NCBI GenBank assembly: GCA_019311115.1
Contig: JAFDDB010000027.1
Location: forward strand, 1 to 38,641
From: Deltaproteobacteria bacterium
Lineage (GTDB): Bacteria > Myxococcota_A > UBA9160 > SZUA-336
Direction of reading: 5' to 3'
Length of the DNA stretch: 38,641 nucleotides
The notes below the pieces were generated by a model. That model was given only the letters and a program-made list of their open reading frames with translations, did no database searches and was not told where the DNA came from. Below are positions 25,906 through 29,141 of the stretch, one piece after another. A program made the position numbers and the translations under genes. The first letter of the stretch is position 1; each line of letters opens with the position of its first letter.

Positions 25906-27183
25906 CTACAGCTCCGCGGCTCGCAACGCGAGGCCGCCGGCGACGGACGTCAACTCGTCGCCGGCGTGGAGCTTCTCGACCCCGAAGCGCTCCAGGAACA
26001 GCCCGCGCACCGCGGGCACGAACGACGAGCCTCCCGTCAGGAACACGGCGTCGATGTCGGCGGGCTCCGTACCGCACTCCTCGAGGAGCCCGTCGAGGCA
26101 GGCCTCGATCTGCTGCACCTCGTCCCAGATCCAGGTCATGAAGTCGCCGCGGTAGATCTCGACGTCGATCGCAGCGGGGCCGTTCTGGAAGACGAAGCGG
26201 CTCTCGTGCCGCGACGACAGCTCGACCTTGGTTCGCTCGACCGCGCGGTAGAGCGCCAAGCCCAGGTCGTTGCGCACCAGGTGGATCAGCGCGTCGAGCT
26301 TCTCGGGCTCGACCGCCTCGCGCCGCAGGTCGTGCAGGATCTGCAACGTCTTCGGCGTCTTCAGGAACGACAAGTGATGCCAGCGCTCGAGGTGCGCGAA
26401 GATCCATTCGGGCATCAACAGCACGCGGCCGAAGATCGACCGGTGCTCGCCGCGCTGACCAAGCTCGGGAGCGACCACGTGGCGCACGATCTTGCCGTCG
26501 AAGGCGTCGCCCGCGACGCCGACGCCGGCCGTGCCCAGGATCGGCTGCGCGTCCCCGCCCTTCTCGCGCCCGGGACCGACGCGCACCAGCGAGAAGTCGC
26601 TCGTGCCGCCGCCGAAGTCGGCGATCAGGACGAGTTCGTCGTGGTCGAGCGACTGCTCGTAGAAGTAGGCGGCCGCCACCGGCTCGTACTCGAAGACGAC
26701 GTCGCCGAAGCCACCGTTCCAGTACGCCGCACGCAGGCGCGACAGGGCGTACTCCTCGTCCTCGGCGCTCTTCGCGCCGGCGAACCGCACGGGCCGTCCC
26801 ACGACGATGGGCCCGTCGAGGGGGCCGAGCCGCGCCTCGGCGCCCTCCCTGAGCCGCATCAGCAGCCGCCCGATCAGCGCCTCGAGCCGCCAAGCGTCAC
26901 CGAACACGCTGGTGGTCACGAAGTCGCGGCTCGGCAGGAAGGACTTGAGGGACTGCACGAGCCGTCCGGGATCGTCGGCCGCCAGGTAGCGGTCGATCGC
27001 CGCGGGTCCGGCGACCGAGGCGATCCGCTCGTCCTCGTCCTTCTCGAAGTACAGGATCGAGCGGAAGGTCGGCGTCTCGCCGCCCGACCAGTCGAAGGTC
27101 CCCAACCGGGGCGCGCCCCCGCCGTCTACGACGGCGATGGCGCTGTTCGTCGTACCGAAGTCCAGACCGATCGCACGTGCCAT
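25906..27183 (-). CDS. Hsp70/DnaK-like ATPase (YegD type, no substrate domain)
   Basis: 425 residues, only the actin-like ATPase fold. Phosphate 1 motif IGLDFGTTNSAIAVVDG, phosphate 2 LVLIADFGGGTSDFSL and adenosine motif AVFLTGGSSFVPAV are intact, so ATP binding is expected. The peptide-binding domain of DnaK is absent, as in E. coli YegD. It may work as a regulatory chaperone-like ATPase. GGAGGG lies upstream of the ATG. It is the last gene in a unit with the CdaA-YbbR fusion and the ClpP paralog, 71 bases after the latter. Confidence 0.9.
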   Translation of the reverse strand: MARAIGLDFGTTNSAIAVVDGGGAPRLGTFDWSGGETPTFRSILYFEKDEDERIASVAGPAAIDRYLAADDPGRLVQSLKSFLPSRDFVTTSVFGDAWRLEALIGRLLMRLREGAEARLGPLDGPIVVGRPVRFAGAKSAEDEEYALSRLRAAYWNGGFGDVVFEYEPVAAAYFYEQSLDHDELVLIADFGGGTSDFSLVRVGPGREKGGDAQPILGTAGVGVAGDAFDGKIVRHVVAPELGQRGEHRSIFGRVLLMPEWIFAHLERWHHLSFLKTPKTLQILHDLRREAVEPEKLDALIHLVRNDLGLALYRAVERTKVELSSRHESRFVFQNGPAAIDVEIYRGDFMTWIWDEVQQIEACLDGLLEECGTEPADIDAVFLTGGSSFVPAVRGLFLERFGVEKLHAGDELTSVAGGLALRAAEL

Positions 27184-27254
27184 CGGAGCCCTCCGCCGAT
27201 TCGTGACCGCCGTTGGATACCGGACGCGGCGCTACAGGGCGCGCAGCCCCCGGG

Positions 27255-27851
27255 TCAGAGCTCGGAGTGACTCGAGACGACCTGCCCGACGATGCCGTAC
27301 GCCTTCGCCTCTTCGGCGTTCATCCAGAAGTTGCGGTCGGTGTCCTTCTCGACCTTGTCGAGCGGCTGGCCCGTCTGGTCCGCGATGACCTGGTTCAGGC
27401 GCCGGCGCATCTTGACGATCTCCTCGGCCTCGATGCCGATGTCCGACGCCTGCCCGCGCACCCCGCCCATGGGCTGGTGCAGCATGTAGCGCGTGTTGGG
27501 CAGCGAAAAGCGGTCCTCGCGCGGCACGCTCAGGTAGATGTGCGCGCCCGCGCTGGCGACCCAGCCGGTCCCCAGGATCTTCACCCGCGGCCCCACGAAG
27601 CGGATCACGTCGAAGATGGTGTCGCCGGCCTCGACGTGGCCACCCTGCGAGTTGATCCAGACCGAGATGTCGTCGTCGGAGTCGTCGGCGAGTGCGACCA
27701 GCTTCTGGCACACGTCCTTGGCCACCGTCTGGTTGATCTCGCCGAACAGGAAGACGCGGCGCGCCTTGAAGAGCGCCTCTTCGATGCGCGCGGCGAACAT
27801 CGACTGCGCGCCGCCAGGGGTGCTGTCGGGGCTCTCGGGCGTGTCGGGCAT
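27255..27851 (-). CDS. ClpP-family serine protease subunit (paralog)
   Basis: 198 residues. The ClpP catalytic triad is present: Ser in GWVASAGAHIYL, His in RYMLHQPMGG and Asp in VEKDTDRNFWM. The oxyanion-region motif is INSQGGHVEAGDTIFD rather than the classic NSPGGSVTAG, and the N-terminal strand MFAARIEEALFKARRVFLFG lacks the usual MVxQTxxGER axial loop; this indicates a ClpP paralog and not the main housekeeping subunit. Without the axial loop its docking to ClpX/ClpA may differ. GGAGA lies upstream of the ATG. Second in a unit with cdaA and an Hsp70-like gene. No ClpX gene is in the window. Confidence 0.85.
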   Translation of the reverse strand: MPDTPESPDSTPGGAQSMFAARIEEALFKARRVFLFGEINQTVAKDVCQKLVALADDSDDDISVWINSQGGHVEAGDTIFDVIRFVGPRVKILGTGWVASAGAHIYLSVPREDRFSLPNTRYMLHQPMGGVRGQASDIGIEAEEIVKMRRRLNQVIADQTGQPLDKVEKDTDRNFWMNAEEAKAYGIVGQVVSSHSEL

Positions 27852-27923: not shown

Positions 27924-29141
27924 CTAGCGCACGCGGTTCTCGGACGGAGCCGCCGCCACGGTGGGAAGGTCGGGCGCGAAGCGCACCGTGACCTGTCCGG
28001 CGTGAAGGCGTCGGACCTCGATGCGGCCGGGGTGGCGCACCCGGTCCAGCGAGAGTGGGAGCGCGGCGCTGCCCTCTCCGTTCGCCAGGCTCGACCCCGC
28101 CCCGGACGCGTCGACCCACACCACGACGTCATCGCCCCCCAGCAGCGCCAGGCTGCGCCGCATTCCCGTGACCGTCACGTCAACGCGTGCGGGCTCCACC
28201 GACGCCACGGCCGCGCCCTCGGGCGCGTGGAGCACGCGCACGGGGACGGACCAGACCTGCTCGGCGGGCCGGGCGCCCGCCACGAAGACGCCCCACAGCG
28301 CGATCGCCAGCGCGCCGGCCCCCGCCAGTTCGGCCGGCCGGCGCCGCAGCCAGCCACCCCAGCCGGCGCGCGAGGGCGAGAGCGCCCGACGCTTGCGGTG
28401 GAAGCGGTCGATCGAGTGGCGGAGTTCGTCCCCGCCGGCCAGTTCGCGCAGCCGCCCGCCCCTTGCCGCCGAGATGGTCCCGCGCTCCTCCGAGACCACG
28501 ATGCACAGCGCGTCGGTCCGCTCCGAGAGCCCGAGCGCCGCGCTGTGCCGCGTCCCGCCTCCGGCCAGTCGCTCGACGTTGCGCGAGAGCGGAAGCTGCA
28601 CGCCGAACCGCGTGACGCGGCCGTCCTCGACCACCGCGGCGCCGTCGTGGCCCGCCGAGTGCGGGTCGAAGACGCTCTCGAGCAGGGCCCGGCTGAGCTG
28701 CCCGCCGAGCCGCTCGCCCCCGTGGAAGTGCCGCTCGAGCTTCTGGACCCCGGGCAGGATCACCAGCGCGCCGATCCGCGCTGCGGCCAGCGCCTGCAAC
28801 GACTCGACCAGGATGTCGGACGAGCCGAGCCGCGGCCGGTAGTCGTCGCGCCGACCCAGCACCCAGGCCGCCACCTCCTCGAAGGCCTGGCGAAGCTCCT
28901 CCTGGAAGAGCACGACCAGCACGAGCGCCAGCGCGGCGAAGAACCCGTGGAAGAGCCAGGTCGTCAGCGACAGCCCGAGCGCCACGGCCGCCGTGTAGAC
29001 CAGCGCCAGCACCGCGACACCGACGGCGACCAGGGCCGCTCGGGAGCGGCGCAGCCAGGAGAGCGCCGCGGCCATCAGCAGCGTCGCCAGCGCGACGTCG
29101 ACCGCGTCCCGCGCCCCGAACTCCCCCAGCGCCTCGAGCAA
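27924..29141 (-). CDS. cdaA: Diadenylate cyclase CdaA fused to a YbbR-like domain
   Basis: 405 residues. Three N-terminal membrane helices (about 15-80) and the coiled segment FQEELRQAFEEVAAWVLG lead into a DAC domain (about 100-240) that makes c-di-AMP from two ATP. The DGA motif (166-168) is intact; the RHR motif reads RHS (198-200). A fourth membrane helix (about 272-290, AGALAIALWGVFVAGA) is followed by about 95 residues (296-390) with the YbbR/CdaR pattern VWSVPVRV, VEPARVDVTVTG, VWVDASG. Normally CdaA and its regulator CdaR (YbbR repeats) are separate adjacent genes; here they are one chain, with a single YbbR repeat outside the membrane. TTG start at 29141, GAGGGGGAG just upstream. First gene of the unit. 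Confidence 0.88.
   Translation of the reverse strand: MLEALGEFGARDAVDVALATLLMAAALSWLRRSRAALVAVGVAVLALVYTAAVALGLSLTTWLFHGFFAALALVLVVLFQEELRQAFEEVAAWVLGRRDDYRPRLGSSDILVESLQALAAARIGALVILPGVQKLERHFHGGERLGGQLSRALLESVFDPHSAGHDGAAVVEDGRVTRFGVQLPLSRNVERLAGGGTRHSAALGLSERTDALCIVVSEERGTISAARGGRLRELAGGDELRHSIDRFHRKRRALSPSRAGWGGWLRRRPAELAGAGALAIALWGVFVAGARPAEQVWSVPVRVLHAPEGAAVASVEPARVDVTVTGMRRSLALLGGDDVVVWVDASGAGSSLANGEGSAALPLSLDRVRHPGRIEVRRLHAGQVTVRFAPDLPTVAAAPSENRVR

Follow-up and report, generated by a model that had tools for sequence, protein, structure and literature searches.

A probable diadenylate cyclase joined to a YbbR repeat in one chain belongs to an old clade of fused proteins spread across many phyla

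The window analysed here is a stretch of 38,641 nucleotides from a deltaproteobacterial contig. An open reading frame on its minus strand (27924..29141) encodes a protein of 405 amino acids from a TTG start codon, which falls at the same position as the ATG of the homologue L019 in an alignment of the two. The preliminary description had taken this product for a single-chain union of the cyclase CdaA with a YbbR domain, and the analysis bore this out: the reading frame is real, and one chain carries a CdaA_N region, a diadenylate cyclase (DAC) domain, a fourth membrane helix, and one YbbR repeat. The N-terminal membrane part (residues 7-84; 28890..29123, minus strand) was delimited by Pfam, hydropathy, and a predicted model. 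CdaA_N matched residues 7-83 with 29.5 bits, over its Pfam cut-off of 23.8, and the model placed three helices at residues 10-32, 36-55, and 58-78, in agreement with hydropathy. The DAC domain (residues 113-230; 28452..28805, minus strand) scored 110.9 bits against a cut-off of 27, and its model matched the crystal structures of CdaA with a Foldseek E value of 2.8e-14. Two motifs within this domain depart from the canonical pattern. The GHDGA motif (residues 164-168; 28638..28652, minus strand) begins with a G where canonical CdaA has L or I, and the segment RHSAA (residues 198-202; 28536..28550, minus strand) has Ser200 in place of the Arg that forms the third residue of RHR. Beyond the DAC domain lie the fourth membrane helix (residues 272-290; 28272..28328, minus strand) and the YbbR repeat (residues about 292-394; 27960..28268, minus strand), the latter recognized by Pfam, by profiles, and by its fold.

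The fusion gene lies outside any cdaR-glmM operon. The next gene downstream, after a gap of 72 nucleotides, encodes a ClpP-like protease (27255..27851, minus strand; Pfam CLP_protease, 214.8 bits), and an HSP70-like gene lies further downstream (25906..27183, minus strand; Pfam HSP70, 64.3 bits). Both genes, together spanning 25906-27851, share the strand of the fusion. Neither a DHH gene nor a Mg2+ transporter gene adjoins the fusion in the window, and a promoter and terminator scan of it gave nothing useful.

A profile search of the C-terminal region had been proposed as a check on the YbbR assignment, and its outcome was divided. The window protein alone matched YbbR (PF07949) at residues 299-365 with 17.8 bits (E 0.0043), under the Pfam cut-off of 22.3; its relatives, profile comparison, and fold matching all favored the assignment. 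Pfam reported YbbR in 23 of the 52 relatives in alignment A2 and in 13 of the 14 in alignment A3. A profile of the C-terminal part matched Listeria Lmo2119, whose depositors state that it has a YbbR-like domain, with an E value of 2.8e-6; further YbbR structures were also matched. In a profile-profile comparison with repeat 1 of the CdaR encoded by the same genome, the E value was 1.6e-13 and the probability 98%. An AF2 model of the C-terminal part (pLDDT 92) returned five PDB matches at E < 0.001, of which the top three, Lmo2119 (first), SP_1560, and Dhaf_0833, are named YbbR-like and the remaining two were given no family name. Because relatives, profiles, and fold back the YbbR identity, the weak single-sequence match is real, and the C-terminal part of the fusion is a YbbR domain. 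A phmmer search of the PDB with the genome's own CdaR brought up nothing beyond weak matches to a cAMP-dependent kinase subunit, which were discarded as chance.

A three-protein CdaR profile ran across both helix 4 and the YbbR repeat in many of the fusions, and because of this continuity helix 4 can be regarded as the counterpart of the N-terminal anchor of CdaR. Judged from these alignments, the join looks like that of CdaA to the N-terminal portion of CdaR. CdaR/YbbR proteins (PF07949) such as Lmo2119 share with the fusion the succession of one membrane anchor and YbbR repeat, but in the fusion there is no separate protein and the repeat is single. Syntrophaceae-type members of the group have a second YbbR repeat, and the CdaR of the window's own genome likewise has two.

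The membrane helix expected at about residues 272-290 was found, with a mean hydropathy of 1.96 and a positive flank at residues 250-268 that holds seven K/R and no D/E. Arg and Lys are abundant in the loop joining helix 1 to helix 2 and in the flank just ahead of helix 4, and the loop from helix 2 to helix 3 is uncharged; this pattern fits a cytosolic DAC domain and a C-terminus on the other side. Helix count and charge together predict that the YbbR part lies outside the inner membrane, in line with the topology first suggested for it. In the relative L063, from a Desulfofervidaceae metagenome-assembled genome (MAG), a single frame (L063:3001-4722, plus strand) encodes CdaA_N-DAC-YbbR-YbbR-OmpA, with the OmpA domain matched at E 4.2e-16; an OmpA domain behind YbbR also fits a periplasmic C-terminus. 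This architecture was seen in that one MAG, and no further case was found among the 148 genomes sampled from its phylum.

The same genome also encodes the canonical system. On another contig (G000:C142), an unfused DAC protein with an intact RHR motif is followed by cdaR and then by glmM. The window fusion is thus a second cyclase and not a replacement. The preliminary description set the single chain against the separate CdaR of most bacteria; in this genome a separate CdaR is still present, in this cluster. The modules united in the fusion are encoded here by two genes, cdaA ahead of cdaR, that overlap by 4 bases. A frameshift could join genes that overlap in this way, so an annotation or assembly artefact has to be weighed, but the genuine cdaA and cdaR genes sit at a locus of their own in this genome, and the 98 distinct fused sequences described below lie on independent contigs and have one origin in a tree. 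We regard an artefact as wildly improbable. The window's genome carries a PgpH-type 7TM-HD gene, as does one genome in which the fusion is the only DAC protein. No c-di-AMP riboswitch was found in the 26 genomes searched, so riboswitches provided no link to the fusion.

The distribution of the fusion was examined by scanning contigs. A scan with the single query P0001 recovered no relative, and the same scan with alignment A1 succeeded, giving 576 loci that encode relatives, of which the best 80 were retained; the presence of YbbR was checked in part of the 576. These relatives come from Deltaproteobacteria, Omnitrophota, Elusimicrobia, Binatia, Dadabacteria, Planctomycetota, Verrucomicrobia, Nitrospirota, and other groups. 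From the loci at hand, 98 distinct fused sequences were extracted, and the count of DAC-YbbR fusions across genomes that had been called for thus reaches into many phyla. In a tree built on TM1-3 plus the DAC domain, 62 fused rows and three sisters lacking YbbR split with full SH-aLRT support from 23 canonical rows, which include CdaA and CdaS of known structure. In this tree the fused proteins form a monophyletic clade with one origin. The fusion is an old clade across many phyla and no local oddity.

Of the genomes in a phylum sample, about 91 belong to the window's class, and about 56 of these had fused-type matches (E below 1e-99, YbbR-less sisters included, counted from the sample table), as did four genomes outside that class. 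Within this class a canonical CdaA nearly always accompanies the fused-type protein. One genome of the window's family, G005, carries three different fused DAC-YbbR genes (L016, L021, and L022) together with a canonical cdaA. Elsewhere the fusion often stands alone: it was the only DAC protein in 17 of the 39 genomes reached through fused loci, those 17 being of uncertain completeness, and in these 17 all YbbR matches fall inside the fusion itself. At L089 the fused gene is broken into two frames, as if by a frameshift.

Variation in the YbbR part bears on what it may do. L017, L018, and L019 keep the DAC domain and helix 4 and end just after that helix, without YbbR. They group with the window protein and L022 at 99% in the tree, and this placement makes them secondary losses of YbbR. 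Across the clade, YbbR is far less conserved than DAC, with an identity ratio of about 0.48. Both the losses and this looser conservation would suit an active cyclase in which YbbR serves chiefly for assembly or anchoring, holding the membrane bundle together and sensing nothing, but the repeat has been kept across many phyla, is duplicated in one branch, and in one relative has been extended by the OmpA domain. Decay of the window's own copy was also considered and is unsupported, since this copy ranks 11 of 49 and is not unusually degenerate, which again speaks against a purely structural role. We consider that role to be quite improbable.

The genes that flank the fusion at other loci were compared with those near canonical genes. 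Clustering of neighboring ORFs also grouped antisense ORFs, and the neighbors reported here were confirmed by Pfam and HMM. In other phyla, 22 of 98 fused loci had a DHH-DHHA1 gene no more than 450 bases from the fused gene, and over the same range MgtE was present in nine of the 98 and CorA in three. None of DHH-DHHA1, MgtE, or CorA was found near the canonical genes in 22 loci, where flanks were shorter than at the fused loci. Given these shorter flanks and the relatedness of the loci, the contrast between fused and canonical neighborhoods is suggestive. The DHH-DHHA1 protein DhhP is a c-di-AMP phosphodiesterase, and c-di-AMP binding has been reported for an MgtE of B. subtilis (both points as cited in PMC8316131). 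One clade has the DHH-DHHA1 gene downstream of the fused gene, and other clades have it upstream. Adjoining cases include L026, L029, L030, L033, L050, L052, L055, and L067, with further ones at L078, L088, L091, L102, and other loci. MgtE adjoins the fused gene at L055, L065, L067, L070, L075, L081, L093, L094, and L101, and CorA does so at L063, L086, and L087, so that two unrelated families of Mg2+ transporters stand directly beside fused genes in different branches.

Compared with CdaA/DacA (TIGR00159; PF19293 + PF02457), the fusion shares the three N-terminal helices, a DAC domain predicted to be cytosolic, and the fold, and it has in common with them HDGA, the first Arg and the His of RHR, and SE. 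It differs by the C-terminal helix and YbbR repeat in the same chain, by RHS in place of RHR, by the G before HDGA, and by SEER in place of SEET, and it scores under the equivalog cut-off for CdaA in NCBIfam TIGR00159 (141.8 versus 188.8 bits). Motifs were tallied by alignment column in 101 clade members (98 fused and three YbbR-less) and 22 canonical proteins. The third residue of RHR was A in 51 clade members, S in 27, T in 22, and G in one, thus A/S/T/G in 101/101, versus R in 21 and K in one of the canonical proteins, thus R/K in 22/22. The clade retains HDGA (residues 165-168 in the window protein), which is invariant apart from one A-to-G change, as well as R198 and H199 of RHR, S217, and E218. 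Fixed changes at E88, G131, G164, R208, and R220 accompany the change in RHR.

The window protein reads RHS and does not carry GXRHRXA with all three RHR residues, and because of this change catalysis cannot be assumed. Mutation of RHR to AAA inactivates M. tuberculosis DacA, CdaS, and CdaM, and in Leptospira CdaA one substitution, at either the DGA Asp or the first Arg, is enough to abolish activity (PMC12974146). The main rival to a working cyclase is accordingly a DAC-fold protein whose chemistry has been lost or changed, one that would bind ATP or c-di-AMP and yield little c-di-AMP or another product, and that might serve either for sensing or as a modulating partner of the canonical CdaA, which in the window's class is nearly always at hand. 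The loss of the third residue in every clade member, the additional fixed positions, and the inactivity of the AAA mutants would all agree with such a protein. In the published RHR mutants examined, however, the triplet was replaced as a whole or at its first Arg, and the literature search turned up no mutant changed solely at the third residue. The retention of HDGA, the first Arg, the His, and SE, the adjacent genes for DHH-DHHA1 phosphodiesterases, and the status of the fusion as the only DAC in many genomes of other phyla also count against altered chemistry, and we judge it unlikely. The core catalytic residues are conserved in the clade, and c-di-AMP synthesis would be in keeping with this conservation, with the DAC fold, and with the DHH-DHHA1, MgtE, and CorA neighbors.

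We therefore favor, as the probable reading, an envelope-coupled membrane c-di-AMP synthase with a CdaR-type regulator tethered in cis; the clade-wide loss of the third RHR residue, the missed TIGR00159 cut-off, the lack of a riboswitch in the genomes searched, the loss of YbbR in three close relatives, and the lack of an adjoining DHH or Mg2+ transporter gene in the window weaken it. In such an enzyme the three N-terminal helices would anchor the cytosolic DAC domain, and the chain would recross the membrane through the CdaR-type anchor helix to end in a single YbbR repeat in the periplasm. Two DAC domains placed face to face would condense two ATP into c-di-AMP. The YbbR part may sense the state of the envelope and, by way of helix 4 and the bundle of membrane helices, alter how the DAC dimer is arranged, and such a change would raise or lower c-di-AMP output. 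The envelope-to-cyclase signalling put forward in the preliminary description could take this route. In the window's genome the fusion would act beside the canonical CdaA-CdaR-GlmM set, and in other phyla it would often serve as the sole DAC protein. For CdaR itself, both the stimulus and the choice between an activating and an inhibiting role are unsettled, and the findings vary from one species to another (PMC9259658).

The pathway and its components are already known; a fused chain carrying a changed motif is a variant on them. No description of a fused DAC-YbbR protein was found in the open literature; a dedicated review of DAC architectures was beyond our reach, and prior cataloguing is possible. 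The combination CdaA_N-DAC-YbbR is presumably already listed in domain databases. A broader proposal, which we offer tentatively and would place well under an even chance, is that the fused clade is a distinct and ancient class of DAC whose activity does not depend on the third RHR residue, has fixed E88, G164, and SEER/K, and carries its envelope sensor in cis, forming with a DHH-DHHA1 phosphodiesterase and MgtE or CorA a compact module that might link the envelope to divalent-cation homeostasis. A cyclase and regulator held in one chain would have a fixed 1:1 ratio, and natural relatives with zero, one, or two YbbR repeats would allow a direct test of envelope control of c-di-AMP. The change of RHR throughout the clade asks which residues of this motif catalysis needs.
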